Source: a virus
Length of the DNA stretch: 40,482 nucleotides
Virus record (IMG/VR): IMGVR_UViG_3300046714_000038
Location: 1 to 40,482 of that record
Reading direction: 5' to 3' (one strand)
Positions 6,792-40,482 of the stretch are shown piece by piece. Numbering within the stretch: position 1 is the first letter of the stretch; every line of letters begins with the position of its first letter. The translations under genes were made by a program, and so were the position numbers. A model generated the notes under the pieces. That model had not been told where the DNA came from. It made no database searches and worked only from the letters and a program-made list of their open reading frames with translations.

Positions 6792-7175
6792 CTGACTGAA
6801 TTCAAACTGAATAAAGTTGTCGCGTTCTGGCAGTTTCCAGCCGATAATCTTATTACCGTATCGAAAGAGGATACGAGAAGGCTTTGACCCTTAGTTAATC
6901 GGTAACCTGTGAACGAACCGGGTAGGCCGAAGGTTGCGAAGGGAAAGGGCAAGAGGGAGAACAAAGGTATCCCTCGTTTCTGAAAACCATTTTCAGGACT
7001 CCGCTGGGACATCGGATCAGAGCCGACAGGAGCCGGGAAGAAAGGTTCAGAGACTTCGACAAATCGAAACGAAGGAGAGAACCCAGATGTGGGAACAGCA
7101 CCTCTCTTCCGTCTAACGGTAAGACCGTTACTGATGATGATTCAGAATCAAGGAATAAAGAAGAGGAGACGAACG
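6792..7175 (+). other. 384-bp non-coding stretch with several short hairpins
   Basis: No convincing gene lies between the polymerase stop and the ATG at 7176. It contains perfect short inverted repeats in plus-strand order: CGTATC/GATACG (6857-6875, loop GAAAGAG), CTGAAAA/TTTTCAG (6980-6996, 3-nt loop) and TAACGGT/ACCGTTA (7114-7130, 3-nt loop). None is followed by a T-run. It could be a 5' leader or structured RNA with a promoter for the next operon. I could not find a convincing -35/-10 pair. A 60-codon frame here lacks protein-like composition. Confidence 0.5.
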
Positions 7176-11481: not shown

Positions 11482-13236
11482 ATGATCATCACTCTTGCCA
11501 ACAACCCCAAGGACTGCCTCATTCGGGATTTCCGAGTGGGGCAGTTTTTTACCATTCTATCAGCGATGCCAGGACGGAAGAAATGGGTGGACAACCAGCT
11601 GGTCTTCCAACCTTCCGGAGCAAACATCGAGTACCTGCTTGCCAATCTCCCCGAGCTTGACTGGCACGAGTCAGCATCGAAGTTCCGAGACGGTTACCTA
11701 GAACTCAAGATGCAGGAGGAGAACACCCGAGCCTCCAAACAGGAGACCCTGACAGACTCCTCGGGATACGAACACAAAGTGGCTCCATTCAAGCATCAAG
11801 AGAAAGCCTTCCTGGTCTCCCGCGATAGGAATGCCTTTGCCCTATTCCACGAGCAAGGGACGGGGAAAACCAAGGTCATCATCGACACCGCAGCCTATCT
11901 ATTTGAGAAAGGAGAGATTGACACGTTGATCGTAATTGCGAGCAACGGAGCGCACATCAACTGGGTCTTGGAGGAGATTCCGGTTCACATGCCTGACCGC
12001 ATCCCGTATCAGTCCGTTTACTTCTCCATCAATTGGCGGGATGCCGAGCTTCGGAACATGATGGCTGCGGCTCGGAGCCGGCAACCGGGAGTTCTCCAGA
12101 TCATCACCTTCTACATCGAAGGAGTGCGTTACCTGCGGGACGGGAGTGAAGGGAAGATGCAGGAATTGATCCTGGCTTGGATGAAGAATACGAAGCTCGG
12201 AGTGATGACTGTGGTTGATGAATCGACAATCATCAAGAATCACTCCACCGACCAAACCAAGTTTGTCGTCAAGTGCCGAGTCCTTTCCAAATATCGCCGG
12301 ATCATGACCGGAACTCCTCTCACGACGGGAATTGAAAACCTGTACAGCCAGTTCCTGTTCCTTGACCCGGACATCCTGGGCCACACATCGTACTCCTCCT
12401 TCAAGGCAGAGTATTGCGTGATGGGAGGTTTTGAGAATCGAGAGATCAAGCACTATCGGAATATCGAGAAGCTGATGAAGATCATTGATGGTCATTCTGA
12501 TCGAGTCCTGGAAAAAGATTGCCTTGACCTTCCGAAGCAACGTTGGAAGCGGCGCAGGTTCGCTCTCTGTCCTCCGCAGCAACGTCTTTATGATGCCTAT
12601 CGAAAGCAATCCTTGGCAGAGATTCAGGAAATCCTCGGAGAGGATCAAGGCATCAAGGCTGCCAAAGAGATTAGCATTGTGCGTGCACTCCGTCTCCAGC
12701 AAATCAGCTGTGGCCTTTCGCCAGAGCACGATCCGAAACGATTGGAGGGGAAGAATGAGAGGATGGAAGCGCTGATGCAAGAAGTGGAGGAGTGCAGAGC
12801 TGGAGGACATAAGATATTGATATGGTGCCGTTTCCTTCCAGACCTTCGGGACATCCACAAAGCTCTTGGGCCAGCCGCAGTTGGTCATTATGGCGGCATC
12901 GGAGAAGATGAACGCATTCTGGCTCGCAAGAAGATTCAAACTGATGACAAGACCCATTACCTCGTTGCGAGCCGTTCGGCTGCGAGGTCTTTTACCTTCA
13001 CTGCCGCAGATCGTAGCATTTACCATTCACAGAACAGCTCATTGGATGACCGGCTGCAATCTCAGAAGCGCAATCACCGTATCGGAACCACCACAGGCGT
13101 TTTGTACACAGACCTGGAGTTGGCTTGCCGAGGGAGCATCGATGTCAAGATCATCAATGCCCTTCGTAAACATAAATCTCTCGCAGACCAGATCAACAAC
13201 GATCCTGCGAGCATCTTCATGGAAGAGGAGGAGTGA
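11482..13236 (+). CDS. Snf2-like SF2 helicase/ATPase
   Basis: 584 residues. Helicase motifs: FHEQGTGKTK (122-131, Walker A), VVDESTIIKN (244-253, motif II, the DExx-x-IKN form typical of Snf2 proteins), IMTGTPLTTG (274-283, motif III), a C-terminal RecA domain with ILIWCRF, and motif VI as QSQKRNHRIGTTTG. Residues 1-100 are an extra N-terminal domain. Such phage proteins are translocases on double-stranded DNA that may aid replication, recombination or displacement of bound proteins; T4 UvsW-like roles are one option. Ends in a GAGTGATGG junction shared with the next gene. Confidence 0.88.
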   Translation: MIITLANNPKDCLIRDFRVGQFFTILSAMPGRKKWVDNQLVFQPSGANIEYLLANLPELDWHESASKFRDGYLELKMQEENTRASKQETLTDSSGYEHKVAPFKHQEKAFLVSRDRNAFALFHEQGTGKTKVIIDTAAYLFEKGEIDTLIVIASNGAHINWVLEEIPVHMPDRIPYQSVYFSINWRDAELRNMMAAARSRQPGVLQIITFYIEGVRYLRDGSEGKMQELILAWMKNTKLGVMTVVDESTIIKNHSTDQTKFVVKCRVLSKYRRIMTGTPLTTGIENLYSQFLFLDPDILGHTSYSSFKAEYCVMGGFENREIKHYRNIEKLMKIIDGHSDRVLEKDCLDLPKQRWKRRRFALCPPQQRLYDAYRKQSLAEIQEILGEDQGIKAAKEISIVRALRLQQISCGLSPEHDPKRLEGKNERMEALMQEVEECRAGGHKILIWCRFLPDLRDIHKALGPAAVGHYGGIGEDERILARKKIQTDDKTHYLVASRSAARSFTFTAADRSIYHSQNSSLDDRLQSQKRNHRIGTTTGVLYTDLELACRGSIDVKIINALRKHKSLADQINNDPASIFMEEEE

Positions 13237-14081: not shown

Positions 14082-14151
14082 AGAACAGCCCCAAGAGTCC
14101 CTTTCCCTTCCCGTAAGCCGGGAGCCGGGAGAGGTCTCTTGGGGCTGTTCT
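14082..14151. terminator. Strong inverted-repeat terminator between convergent operons
   Basis: A perfect 16-bp inverted repeat, AGAACAGCCCCAAGAG (14082-14097) and its complement (14136-14151), encloses a 38-nt loop that itself is purine/pyrimidine-skewed. It sits between the rightward nuclease gene and the leftward lysozyme gene. On the minus strand it is followed by CTTTGTTTTC, so it best fits the end of the late operon; on the plus strand the T-run is poor. Confidence 0.8.
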
Positions 14152-29533: not shown

Positions 29534-29821
29534 TTAGTCATTGCTGATGCCAGCAGTCATAATTTTAGTCCGGGTATTTGCTCCAGCAGTCACAACAATT
29601 GTGACTTCGTACTTCACTCCTTCAGAAGCACTAATGTTCCAAGTGCATTGGTAATTGTAGGTTGCCTGGCCCACGATATGATTCATTGCCTGGTTGGTAA
29701 AGATGTCAGCTCCATAAGTGATCTTCAAGGAAGCCGTCACCGCATCAGCAACAATTGGCGCTCCAGTATCATCAGTCACCAAAGCGCGTAAGAAGTTAGT
29801 GCCAAGAACAAAATTGATCAC
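29534..29821 (-). CDS. Small beta-rich hypothetical protein, GTG start
   Basis: 95 residues with an Ig-like alternating pattern (VADAVTASLKITYG, YNYQCTWNISASEGVKYEVTIVV in parts). GTG start at 29821 overlaps the upstream stop (GTGA) and has GAGGTGG before it. Small beta proteins next to repeat adhesin-like genes often join virion surfaces. No family recognised. Confidence 0.6.
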   Translation of the reverse strand: MINFVLGTNFLRALVTDDTGAPIVADAVTASLKITYGADIFTNQAMNHIVGQATYNYQCTWNISASEGVKYEVTIVVTAGANTRTKIMTAGISND

Positions 29822-31485
29822 TGTACCACCTCAACGTCTGCATTCAAAGCATAAGAGATAAACACATCGACCTTGATTGCTGATACTGTTAAAACGTCTA
29901 TGTTAAAGTCCGGCACATCAACTGTGGGAGCAGCATCCATAAAAGCCGCCACAGCAGGAACATTAATTGCTGGAAGAGCAAAAGCAATGATGGGCCCAAT
30001 ATTGAATTGGTGCATCGTTCCTGTTACTGTTGATGAGCCAAACGAAGTCCCAGACAAAGCTCCTGTGGCTTGGATTAAAGCAGAACATGTACTTGTGCCC
30101 GAGGATGAACCAGCCAAGGCTCCTTTCCCTGCCACCGTTGCGGTAACTGAAGAACTCCCCGAAGCAGACGCACTCAGGCTACCAATACCAGTCAAGGTTC
30201 CTGTGACAGAGGAAGACCCTGCGCTAGTGCCTGAAATAAAAATAGATCCAATCAAATTGCCTATCACAGTCGATTGCCCGGCTGACGATCCTGCTAATGT
30301 TCCAGAGCCAACCAACACCGCGGTGATACTTGACAACCCGGCAGATGTACCAGACAAAGCTCCATTCCCAGCCAAAGTTGCCGTCACAGTTGATAGCCCA
30401 GCTGACGATCCGGCAAGTGCTCCGGAGCCAGAAAGAGTTGCTGATGTGGTAGATGTTCCAGCAGATGATCCAGCAAGTGCTCCCGCTCCTACCATTGTTG
30501 CCGTCACAGTCGATTGCCCGGCTGACGACCCAGCAAGAGCACCAGAACCTTTCATTGTTGCTGTAACTGTAGACAACCCTGCTGAAGAGCCAGCCAAGGT
30601 TCCACTCCCGGTTAACGTCGCAGCAACAGTCGATATACCAGCAGACGATCCAGCCAAGGCTCCACTCCCAGCTGCGGTTGCTGTCACAGTCGATTGCCCG
30701 GAGGAAGACCCTGCGAGCGAACCGGAAGCCGACGCGGTAGCGGAGACTGTGGACTGTCCTGAGGAAGAGCCAGCCAAGGTTCCACTCCCAGTCAAGGTGC
30801 CAGTGACGGAGGAAGACCCGTCTGAAGAGCCAGAGCCTTGAACCACATTATCATAGAACGTAACCAGCTGGGCAGCCCAATTTACTGAGTTGCCTTTGCC
30901 TACTGTTGTTGTGCTGGTTGCATTATATGATCCAGTGGTGGACGTAATTTGATACTCTGTTATGAACCCAAGAGCACTAGATTGTACTGATGTAGAACTT
31001 GCAATTGTCGTCCATCCTGATCCGGGAGAAATGGTTAGTGCTGCTCCGAGCGAACCAATAAATGGAATGAAACCAAAAAGAAGCTCAACTGGCTGAGCGA
31101 TTGTGCCTGCTCCAGAGTCTTGAGCATTGCCAACGCTTATTGCAGCAGCAGAAGCATCAGATACCTTTATGCCAGAAAACTCCGCAATCTGTAATCCAGA
31201 AATAGTTGATACCAATCCACTAACGGTTACTGTGTTGGCCCCAGTGGAATTTGCAAAAGCATAAAACATTTGGCCACTAGCATTACCAGTATAATTTCTT
31301 TCTGTCAATGCATTATAGGAGTTGCCTTGAGAATCAGAACAAGAGAATGCAGCACCTATCTGTAATGCATCAAACACAGTCACCACCAGGAGGTCTCCCA
31401 GCGTGACGTTAGAGCTGAATGCTTTAGAGATAGATGTCCCTGTAGCTTGATCCTGCTCCGCGTGTTGGACTAAATTAATGGCCAC
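29818..31485 (-). CDS. Repeat-rich virion protein with thirteen 20-residue repeats
   Basis: 555 residues. Residues 1-215 form a beta domain often seen in phage surface proteins (TLGDLLVVTVF, CSDSQGNSYN, GANTVTVSG). Residues 221-491 are 13 full and one partial tandem copies of a 20-residue unit, consensus SAGQSTVTATLxGSGALAGS. The last 64 residues are different and hydrophobic-to-acidic. No catalytic motif. The repeats predict a long fibre or beta-solenoid. Its place among head genes suggests a head-attached fibre rather than a tail fibre. GTG start at 31485 has GGAAGAGAA before it and overlaps the upstream gene by 16 bases. Confidence 0.7.
   Translation of the reverse strand: MAINLVQHAEQDQATGTSISKAFSSNVTLGDLLVVTVFDALQIGAAFSCSDSQGNSYNALTERNYTGNASGQMFYAFANSTGANTVTVSGLVSTISGLQIAEFSGIKVSDASAAAISVGNAQDSGAGTIAQPVELLFGFIPFIGSLGAALTISPGSGWTTIASSTSVQSSALGFITEYQITSTTGSYNATSTTTVGKGNSVNWAAQLVTFYDNVVQGSGSSDGSSSVTGTLTGSGTLAGSSSGQSTVSATASASGSLAGSSSGQSTVTATAAGSGALAGSSAGISTVAATLTGSGTLAGSSAGLSTVTATMKGSGALAGSSAGQSTVTATMVGAGALAGSSAGTSTTSATLSGSGALAGSSAGLSTVTATLAGNGALSGTSAGLSSITAVLVGSGTLAGSSAGQSTVIGNLIGSIFISGTSAGSSSVTGTLTGIGSLSASASGSSSVTATVAGKGALAGSSSGTSTCSALIQATGALSGTSFGSSTVTGTMHQFNIGPIIAFALPAINVPAVAAFMDAAPTVDVPDFNIDVLTVSAIKVDVFISYALNADVEVVQ
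30013..30825 (-). repeat. Tandem 60-bp (20-codon) repeat array
   Basis: Thirteen 20-codon units plus an 11-codon remnant, read on the minus strand. The best conserved positions are SxGxSTVTAT and GSGxLAGS; units toward the C-terminal end are more diverged, as in IGSIFISGTSAG. The array produces a mirrored 322-codon plus-strand frame without coding value. Repeat number could vary between relatives by recombination. Confidence 0.9.
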
Positions 31486-37701: not shown

Positions 37702-37908
37702 CTATGCCACCACCGAGACTGTGATCAACACAACCCTGCCGTCCGGCAAGGTCTCTTGCTTGGCAATCCCGCTGCCGATTTGCGCGCCAGCTTCCGTGCC
37801 CCACAACGAAGTATCGCTGGTGTCAACGGGAGTTCCTGAACCATTCGATAGAAGGGAGACATCGCCAAATCCCTTCTGTGTATTGAAACGCAGGACGAAC
37901 TCTTTCAC
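37702..37908 (-). CDS. Small hypothetical protein between terminase genes
   Basis: 68 residues, beta-rich (KEFVLRFNTQ, GFGDVSLLSNG, RVVLITVSVV). GTG start at 37908 overlaps the TAG of the small terminase by one base, with AGGAGCG upstream. Lying between small and large terminase suggests a packaging accessory, but no family is recognised. Confidence 0.6.
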   Translation of the reverse strand: MKEFVLRFNTQKGFGDVSLLSNGSGTPVDTSDTSLWGTEAGAQIGSGIAKQETLPDGRVVLITVSVVA

Positions 37909-38510
37909 TATTTACGCTCCTCTTTACGTTGATTGATGATCTTCAACAACTCAGCATCCGACTTACTCTCAGGGCTATTGTCAGCCTCAAAGATTCCTTC
38001 AGAGAACAGCTTCTTGTGCTTGCCGAGGAGTTCCAAAGCTCCTCTCCGTTCTAACTTGAAGCGGACACGCTTCACTTCCCGAGCATTCTCCCCTTTGCCA
38101 TCCATGTACTCATCAACAGTTAGCTCAGTGATCGCGTCAAGCTCATCCGGTGTGGCAGCAGAGAAGTCAAAGTACAGGTCTCCCTCTTCCGTCTTGCGGG
38201 CAAACTTGGACATGCCATTATATGCCAACTTGCTAAGCTCAAACAGTATCCGCTCCGAGGTCACATCATACTTCTTAGCCAACATGTCACCGTGCGCCGC
38301 GATAGCAGATTGAACCCGAGGAGACTTCATCAGAGCATGGCCAGCATTAGTGGCTTGCTTTGGCGTAACTCCGATGCGCCGGCAAGCTAATGTGGCATTA
38401 CCAACTCCGCCAGTCTCCAGAAGTGTCTGAACATAGGCAGGCACAAATTCACGCTCCCTTGCTGTTAGGCCATCTGGGCCACGGTATCTGTCTGCTTTTT
38501 TCTTGGCCAT
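37908..38510 (-). CDS. terS: Terminase small subunit
   Basis: 200 residues. LTAREREFVPAYVQTLLETG...NATLACRRIGVTPKQATNAGHALM...SPRVQSAI is the DNA-binding N-terminal domain of terminase_2-type small subunits (helix-turn-helix plus oligomer helices). It recognises phage DNA and recruits the large subunit. First gene of the leftward operon; the control region begins just upstream. ATG 38510 with AAGGGTTTGAG before it. Confidence 0.9.
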   Translation of the reverse strand: MAKKKADRYRGPDGLTAREREFVPAYVQTLLETGGVGNATLACRRIGVTPKQATNAGHALMKSPRVQSAIAAHGDMLAKKYDVTSERILFELSKLAYNGMSKFARKTEEGDLYFDFSAATPDELDAITELTVDEYMDGKGENAREVKRVRFKLERRGALELLGKHKKLFSEGIFEADNSPESKSDAELLKIINQRKEERK

Positions 38511-38613
38511 GTCTCAAACCCTTATTAGGTGACTCAAGAGGATGCTGCTAAAGCCGGAAGGAAGTAAAGGCGTTACCTCGCAATTACGACCTTACAACTT
38601 ATCAGACTCCCGA

Positions 38614-38659
38614 GCGAAGCGTGCGAAGCCCTTAGGAGACCCAACTTGACCGATACACT
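38614..38659 (+). repeat. 46-nt inverted repeat, left arm (partner at 38857-38902)
   Basis: Begins GCGAAGCGTGCGAAGC and ends CTTGACCGATACACT. The reverse complement of 38857-38902 matches it along the whole length except one A/G substitution and two single-base indels; the 29 bases 38631-38659 match 28 of 29. A 197-bp spacer separates the arms. Each arm has the same orientation relative to the operon it faces. Confidence 0.92.
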
Positions 38660-38856
38660 CCTGCATCGGCAGTCCAGTCCTTTCCTCCGCTTCCACGCTT
38701 CGGAGCAACGTAAGTTGTTGAACCGGAACATAGTAACTGCGAAGCGTACCCCAGGATAACTCCGCTTCTCCCCGCTTCTATGCCACTTCTAGCAAACCTA
38801 AGTCCTTGATTTCATTGAACTCTATTCCGGGTGGCTCACAACTTCTCTCATACAGA

Positions 38857-38902
38857 AGTGTATCGGTCAAGCTGGGTCTCCTAAGGAGCTTCGCCGCTTC
38901 GC
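38857..38902 (-). repeat. 46-nt inverted repeat, right arm (partner at 38614-38659)
   Basis: Plus strand starts AGTGTATCGGTCAAGC and ends CCGCTTCGC. Lies 181 bases before the rightward gene at 39083, while the left arm lies 103 bases before the terminase start, so both arms sit at similar distance from a divergent operon. Confidence 0.92.
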
Positions 38903-39082
38903 GGTCTCCCGGCTCGGCAATCCTTCGATCCTCGCAATTGCGCCGTTCTCCTCTTCCCTTCCTTCCCGTTCCAAGAGAGAATCCTCTCCGAGTCTTTTTG
39001 TTCCCACAAAAGGGGAGCTGGTAGAAAGGAAGGTTCGTATGCGATAAACCGGAGTCCAAAACCCTTATCAAGGGAAATAACT

Positions 39083-39568
39083 ATGGCAGGGAGAGGGAGC
39101 CGCAGAACACTTTCCTCTCCCAATTTTTCAATCAAGGATAAAAGGATCAAAGTTAACCGCCAAATGACACTGCGCAAAACATTCACGCTCCCCTTCAATC
39201 GCAAAGTCCCTCCTCTCTTTCAGTCCGGAGGTCTCCTAGATGGGAAGACCCGAGGATTGGGTGCCAAAGTTAGGTTTATGGTCTCCATGCCGGAAACACA
39301 TTTCTCTGCTCGGGATTGGATGGCAGCCTACGAATCAGCTAAGAGAGAGTTAGCAGACATTTGCTTCGCAGAACAGCGTTGCGCGTCTTATGCAGAAATG
39401 TCGCAGTTGGAATGGCTCCGAGAGTCTGGGCATTGTCTCTGGCAGAAAGACAAGGATTACCCGCGTTGCTCGCTGAATGCGTATATAGCAGGTCTGGAAT
39501 CCGACATCAAGAAACTTTCAAAATCAAGGAATAAAGAGAATGACAATCAGAACAGTAAACAAGCCTAA
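39083..39568 (+). CDS. Hypothetical protein, first gene of the right block
   Basis: 161 residues. The first 60 are basic (RGSRRTL...KDKRIKVNR); the rest contains HFSARDWMAAYESAKREL and AEMSQLEWLRESG, helical and charged, with three cysteines. No family recognised. ATG 39083 has AAGGGAAATAAC before it; ATG 39164 in the same frame also has an AATCAAGGATAAAAGG leader-like sequence about 30 bases upstream and may be the true start. The 3' end overlaps the next leader and gene by 29 bases. Confidence 0.6.
   Translation: MAGRGSRRTLSSPNFSIKDKRIKVNRQMTLRKTFTLPFNRKVPPLFQSGGLLDGKTRGLGAKVRFMVSMPETHFSARDWMAAYESAKRELADICFAEQRCASYAEMSQLEWLRESGHCLWQKDKDYPRCSLNAYIAGLESDIKKLSKSRNKENDNQNSKQA
39516..39542 (+). 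promoter_or_regulatory. Leader motif AATCAAGGAATAAAGA, copy 3
   Basis: TTTCAAAATCAAGGAATAAAGAGA runs directly into the ATG at 39540. The 16-nt core is identical to that at 7146, 8 kb downstream on a circular map or 32 kb away here. The AAGGA core may itself be the ribosome-binding site. Confidence 0.6.
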
Positions 39569-40338: not shown

Positions 40339-40482
40339 CTACGAGATTCATTGCCCCAGTTGTGGCGTGCTCATTCGTCGCATCCGAGAAGACCGCGCCA
40401 AGGAGCGGAGCTGCCCTGATTGTAAACATCCGCAAGCCATATGGCTTTTATTTTATAGGCAAACGCATGTTAAGATGCTGGA
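40325..40482 (+). CDS. Com-like zinc-ribbon protein, cut by right window edge
   Basis: Translated by hand: GTG at 40325 with GGGGAGCT upstream, then IHCPSCGVLIRR and RSCPDCKHPQAIW, a compact CxxC/CxxC zinc ribbon like phage Com-type small proteins (Mu Com regulates translation). Frame stays open to the window edge (52 codons). Overlaps the previous stop by 14 bases. Role unknown. Confidence 0.6.
   Translation, partial: MPATNYEIHCPSCGVLIRRIREDRAKERSCPDCKHPQAIWLLFYRQTHVKML

Follow-up and report, generated by a model that had tools for sequence, protein, structure and literature searches.

The early/late junction of phage W

We analysed a 40,482-base virus record (IMG/VR IMGVR_UViG_3300046714_000038; the whole record is the window, hereafter W) and, within it, a 289-base non-coding element that is bounded by a long inverted repeat and lies at the junction of two divergent operons, 104 bp upstream of terS. 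W is an undescribed phage of about 40.5 kb, nearly complete, and from its gene content it reads as a lytic-type tailed phage. In the late operon, on the minus strand, terS (37908-38510) comes first, genes for terminase, portal, head, and tail proteins follow, and an endolysin gene near 14.2 kb closes the series. The early operon, on the plus strand, runs from 39083 across the ends of the record to about 14 kb and encodes ThyX, a Dda-like helicase, a DnaQ-like exonuclease, a DnaE-like DNA polymerase, and an SNF2-type helicase. Both ends of the record (40448-40482 joined to 1-60) fall in a single thyX gene, about 35 bases apart, and the map of W is therefore circular and complete save for those bases; compared with the ThyX of a related contig, G005, about 11-12 residues are absent at the join.

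A reading made earlier from the sequence alone (hereafter the sequence-only reading) had described the arms of the repeat as 38614-38659 and 38857-38902, matching over 46 nt with one substitution and two 1-nt indels around a spacer of 197 bp (38660-38856), and this was confirmed. The match turned out to run 7 nt further inward with two more differences, giving arms at 38614-38666 and 38850-38902 (54 columns, 90.7% identity, E value of 5.5e-12 when the 40,482-base record is searched against itself). Also as described, the arms are placed symmetrically to the divergent terS (late, minus strand) and 39083 (early, plus strand) operons. Allowing up to 3 mismatches, the window has no third copy of an arm (shuffles expect 0), and related phage loci totalling 2.12 Mb yielded only 2 comparably strong inverted repeats (E < 1e-4, arms more than 60 bp apart, span of at most 450). 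The self-search E value, the shuffles, and this rarity ruled out a chance repeat, so the claim of a nonrandom repeat in a divergent control region held, and the paired state was kept in relatives.

The relatives used for comparison were metagenome contigs, as is W itself, and together they make up only three independent sequence groups: W, G5 (G004, G005, L188, and L190), and G6 (G006). The features of the junction in W are as follows.

37908-38510, minus strand: terS, the first late gene (Terminase_2, PF03592; phrog_51)
38576-38593, plus strand: CTCGCAATTACG block left of the element, a direct repeat of 38930-38947; G5 and G6 have a similar block on this side of the element
38614-38666, no strand: left arm; complementary to the right arm at 91% over 54 columns
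38614-38620, plus strand: GCGAAGC heptamer 1, left arm
38623-38629, plus strand: GCGAAGC heptamer 2, left arm
38650-38669, plus strand: perhaps a small hairpin (CCGAT...ATCGG), seen by eye, where the left arm ends on its inner side
38667-38849, no strand: conserved non-coding core (spacer), 183 bp; 38657-38833 is 73% identical to the corresponding stretch of G004/G005
38687-38702, plus strand: core block CCGCTTCCACGCTTCG (CCGCTTCGCCGCTTCG in G5 and G6)
38711-38728, plus strand: core block TAAGTTGTTGAACCGGAA
38734-38746, plus strand: core block TAACTGCGAAGCG
38739-38745, plus strand: GCGAAGC heptamer 3, core, also in G5/L190
38755-38769, plus strand: core block GATAACTCCGCTTCT (GATAACTCCG in all three groups)
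38820-38833, plus strand: core block CTCTATTCCGGGTG
38850-38902, no strand: right arm, the same 54-column, 91% match to the left arm
38888-38894, minus strand: GCGAAGC heptamer 4, right arm
38896-38902, minus strand: GCGAAGC heptamer 5, right arm
38930-38947, plus strand: CTCGCAATTGCG block right of the element; the like block in G5 carries TTGACA-N17-TACGGT
39083-39568, plus strand: first early gene, function unknown, its protein model being of poor quality; G5 and G6 have homologues on the right of the element

A conserved spacer between arms that change in concert

A search with the DNA polymerase led to the G5 contigs at 80% identity and to G006 at 73%, and the first early gene is common to all three groups (46-59% identity). 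When the whole junction was used as the query, it was the spacer that matched and not the arms: 38657-38833 matched G005 at 73%, and 38687-38764 matched G006 at 76%. Between species the spacer is 71-76% identical, while the intergenic flanks hardly align. Its conserved blocks (CCGCTTC-CGCTTCG, TAAGTTRTTGAACCGG, TAACTGCGAAGCG, GATAACTCCG, and CTCTATTCCGGGTG) are partly directly repeated. The spacer of each relative lies between a different inverted repeat, of 44 columns at 91% in G5 (89% in L190) and 38 columns at 84% in G6. In each group the element has late-strand genes on its left and the first early gene or its homologue on its right, and its outer span is nearly constant (289 bp in W, 287 bp in G5, and 292 bp in G6) though the inner lengths vary. 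The repeat is kept in relatives as a pair, at the same place, but no arm sequence is common to W, G5, and G6; the sequence-only reading had not foreseen that the conserved sequence would be the spacer or that both arms would change together. What should be sought in further relatives is the spacer and the architecture rather than the arms.

Several other accounts of the locus were dropped. A coding region was ruled out by stops throughout the core and by indels between relatives that are not multiples of three. Long plus-strand open reading frames (ORFs) left of the element in G5 were not kept as genes; conserved minus-strand ORFs (112 and 122/83 aa), common to G6, mark the late operon there. 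A miniature transposable element or transposon with terminal inverted repeats does not describe an element that occurs as a single copy, at the same locus in three phage groups, and with ends less conserved than its core.

We then compared the arms among the groups. W and G5 have homologous left arms (0 of 2,000 shuffles reached their alignment score), while the arms of G5 and G6 are only marginally alike (148 of 2,000 shuffles did as well). Despite this divergence between genomes, the two arms within a genome match at 91, 91, and 84% in W, G5, and G6, respectively. Between W and G5, 13 columns carry the same change on both arms, against 2.65 ± 1.44 (maximum of 9 in 20,000) under a null in which the right arm changes independently; this null treats columns as independent and rests on a gapped alignment. 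The changes are spread over the whole arm, with no motif spared. From these parallel changes, the arms are, as far as sequence comparison goes, held to each other and not to a sequence. Such concerted change fits base pairing, two copies of a site tracking one changing protein, or homogenization by template switching or recombination, and the data do not separate the three. If the arms work by pairing, the element would be an uncommon phage control element, selected for complementarity rather than sequence. The putative small hairpin at the inner end of the left arm in W has counterparts in G5 (CCCGAT...ATCGGG) and G6 (ACCTAG...CTAGGT), likewise seen by eye.

The element does not extend to all phages with a similar late operon. 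The contig G001, obtained by portal and TerL searches (47,399 bases, complete by its 127-base terminal repeat), matches the late module of W gene for gene at 55-75% identity, in the same order, and its operons diverge in the same way. Neither its early genes nor its TerS are related to those of W (a weak helicase match only), and its divergent region has no such inverted repeat. According to the sequence-only reading, relatives that lack the arms while keeping the same operons would speak against a role for them; G001 gives a mixed answer, as it shares the late operon without the arms but not the early operon. The element accompanies the early module and TerS and is absent when these are replaced; its function therefore belongs to replication, early regulation, or TerS recognition. 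No inverted repeat was found in the divergent regions of the named phages Ss1 and VA-RY-3 (polymerase 41% identical), no blastn match to arm or core in named phages, no match to the core pattern in 84,980 prokaryote genomes, and no exact arm motif in viral contigs. A looser core pattern gave four further matches (L191-L194) that we judged to be chance, L194 lying within an ORF and L192 having no flanking repeat.

Replication, hairpin, and operator readings

Taken together, the sequence comparisons point to a real control element, and thus to a defined, testable target of 289 bp in a little-known phage group. We favour, tentatively and with confidence somewhat short of even, a cis-acting part of the early (replication) module, probably an origin region, that is held or bracketed by the paired arms. 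Replication of the circular genome would start in the region of the element, and a phage initiator would bind the core repeats (CGCTTC/GCGAAGC and TAAGTTRTTGA). The arms would act either by complementarity, as a hairpin on an exposed single strand, or as two site copies bracketing the core, and their sequence could drift provided that both changed together. An origin explains the conserved, repeat-bearing core, the link to replication genes, and the nearby minimum of the detrended GC skew, at a distance of 0.3-2.1 kb in W, G005, and G006. As in iteron-type theta origins, clustered repeats lie in non-coding DNA and are conserved in relatives.

The repeats themselves are strongly concentrated in the element. 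GCGAAGC is the top-ranked heptamer of the junction, and 5 of its 6 genomic copies in W lie inside the element; the corresponding counts are 5 of 10 in L190, 5 of 16 in G005, and 2 of 10 in G006. CGCTTC has 7 copies in W against 0.15 expected. For CGCTTC and GCGAAGC, motifs that were picked from the window itself, the enrichment P values were 3e-10 and 3e-13 in W, 1e-8 and 5e-8 in G5, and 2e-3 and 1e-3 in G6. d(GCGAAGC) forms an extraordinarily stable DNA mini-hairpin, with a melting temperature of about 78°C (PMC4686876), and by analogy the heptamers may fold in this way here; a protein site is equally possible.

The SPP1 origins oriL and oriR offer the closest comparison for an origin, with repeat-bearing non-coding DNA next to the replication module and, near the element, a GC-skew minimum. 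Unlike them, the element has short, irregular repeats and long inverted arms that drift in concert, and it offers neither an identified initiator nor a clear AT-rich unwinding element. Several points weigh against an origin. The GC skew is confounded by divergent transcription, and no initiator gene was identified: the candidate, an early protein of 381 aa, gave only subthreshold wHTH/DnaD matches and a low-confidence model. The GC content of the element is 49-53%, and the 40-bp window of lowest GC falls within it in W alone (32.5% GC), being outside it in G5 and G6. Duplex DNA is unlikely to form a cruciform whose loop would be about 200 nt long, and the presence/absence pattern of the element fits TerS equally well.

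The fold of the element bears on how the arms might act. As a whole it folds better than shuffled sequences (z of -6.6 to -11.7 as RNA and about -11 as single-stranded DNA), owing to its arms, while the core RNA alone folds no better than shuffles on either strand (z of -0.8 to +0.8). Possible, though doubtful, is a constant-length (about 290 bp) non-coding module that works as a single-stranded (DNA or RNA) hairpin controlling the start of replication or the early-to-late switch, its arms selected for complementarity and not sequence and closing a conserved d(GCGAAGC)-rich core. The over-representation of GCGAAGC and the single-stranded fold recall d(GCGAAGC) mini-hairpins and the hairpin promoters of phage N4. 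The latter have a short stem and a tiny loop, whereas in the element a loop of about 200 nt would be closed by arms of 40-53 bp, and no RNA polymerase, virion-borne or other, was found among the W proteins scanned.

Of the accounts considered, one in which a transcript, more likely the late one from the minus strand, crosses the element gives the best account of the complementarity and of a weak late-strand bias in G-U pairs, yet we hold it to be unlikely overall. The arms would pair as an RNA stem of 40-53 bp (RNase III-like or a leader structure) around the conserved loop of about 200 nt, which would regulate late expression or be released as a small RNA. The arms covary as pairing partners should (the 13 both-arm changes), and a loop of this size is easy for RNA, unlike a duplex cruciform. 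Transition mismatches between the arms become G-U pairs in 5 cases on minus-strand RNA against 1 on plus-strand RNA, a bias that is not significant, and the minus-strand RNA is at least as stable in all groups (-147 versus -124 in W, -123 versus -115 in L190, -126 versus -122 in G5, and equal in G6). The core, however, lacks a fold signal on either strand, no promoter transcribing the element was identified, and Rfam had no covariance-model match for it. Long stems of the rRNA-precursor or RNase III type likewise have fast-changing complementary arms around a conserved core; they differ from the element in that its core has no RNA fold signal and it is known from DNA, with no known transcript. 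RNAalifold on W, G5, and G6 was not used, as the G6 arms were misaligned.

Paired operators, at which a phage regulator bound to both arms would fold the junction into a loop and toggle between the divergent early and late promoters, are improbable in our estimate. The divergent position in all three groups, the symmetry of the arms to both operons, and the short repeats in arms and core agree with such a device. An operator reading must nevertheless account for arm sequences that are not conserved. In the lambda OL/OR type, the operator sequence is conserved along with its regulator, but here the arm sequence differs among the three groups, G5 and G6 being alike hardly beyond shuffles, and no motif within the arms is spared from change. 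Also, no recognized repressor gene was present among the early proteins tested. Of the four proposals in the sequence-only reading, an origin with symmetric sites and paired operators are still viable. Twin promoters, also proposed there, found no support: a sigma-70 search gave no promoter motif in the arms, and W, G5, and G6 have no arm sequence in common.

Elsewhere at the junction, L188 carries two copies of a 62-nt block, 98% identical (12313-12374 and 13077-13138), with TTGACA-N17-TACGGT, ahead of the first and second early genes; these are probably early promoter copies. All three groups have a hairpin in the interval from the element to the first early gene (L188 12540-12568, plus strand; L185 2489-2459, minus strand; W about 38983-39017, plus strand). 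Those of G5 and G6 look homologous, with compensating changes, and the hairpin could perhaps be a leader attenuator or terminator.

Packaging and inversion as improbable readings, and other repeats

Given the association with TerS, we also weighed a packaging (pac) site, in which TerS would bind both arms and the first cut would fall between them. In SPP1, pacL and pacR enclose pacC in this way, with the TerS sites on either side of pacC located at the terS promoter (PMC4856287, PMC6316719). We consider a pac site quite improbable here. The likeness lies in two sites around a spacer of the same size order, upstream of a Terminase_2-family terS, which in W is 104 bp away. The presence of the element tracks TerS homology (W, G5, and G6 have both; G001 and G008 have neither), G5 retains TerS and the element despite a different TerL, and G009, whose TerS is 33% identical, has an inverted repeat of unrelated sequence with an equal span of 289 bp, 0.8 kb from terS. 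The 127-base end repeats of G001 and G009, read as an assembly k-mer, are consistent with circular permutation. On the other side, the element is separated from terS by about 2 kb and several genes in G5 and G6, that is, in two of the three groups; pacL and pacR of SPP1 are not sequence copies of each other, whereas the arms are near-identical inverted copies; and the conserved part is the spacer, which would not be expected of a region that is cut. Two distant TerS homologues (from a Microcystis phage and Bacillus phage Pascal) come with no such repeat. An origin or a pac site at this locus would place the start of replication or packaging in phages that encode a DnaE-like polymerase.

Recombination between the arms, flipping 38667-38849 as an invertible switch, would also keep inverted arms alike within each genome, but it is highly improbable. 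Every contig with the element, whether W, G6, or of the G5 type, carries the core in one orientation, where a Hin/Gin-type invertible segment would occur in both, and the arm sequences have no common crossover core. The remark of the sequence-only reading that no invertase is seen was correct, as no recombinase of the serine or tyrosine families was found among the W proteins scanned.

TerL and other repeats were observed in the same phages. The TerL family differs despite the common TerS and early module (phrog_38 in W and phrog_2 in L188), and by comparison of G005/L188 with W, it is TerL that appears to have been replaced while TerS stayed. The repeat of G009 (complete, 62.9 kb; polymerase 60% identical) lies at 52583-52640/52814-52871, between two same-strand genes, and has arms of CCGGCCCAT repeats without similarity to the core. 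Two further contigs with related polymerases carry repeats of other kinds: G010 has inverted GCCTCACT repeats around an AT-rich (TAA)n stretch (55384-55708), and in L110 a divergent region that contains a poly-C stretch has an inverted repeat of 36 nt (2516-2690). In W, a long hairpin (14082-14151, 77% self-complementary) lies where the two operons converge and is probably a two-way terminator. Degenerate tandem repeats, with units of about 60 nt and multiples thereof, occupy 30104-30819 within an ORF of 555 aa (29818-31485, minus strand) that sits among head genes. Finally, a sequence of 21-26 nt (CAAAATCAAGGAATAAAGAG-like) recurs ahead of early genes in W, at 7141, 7548, and 39517, and is probably a common ribosome-binding leader.
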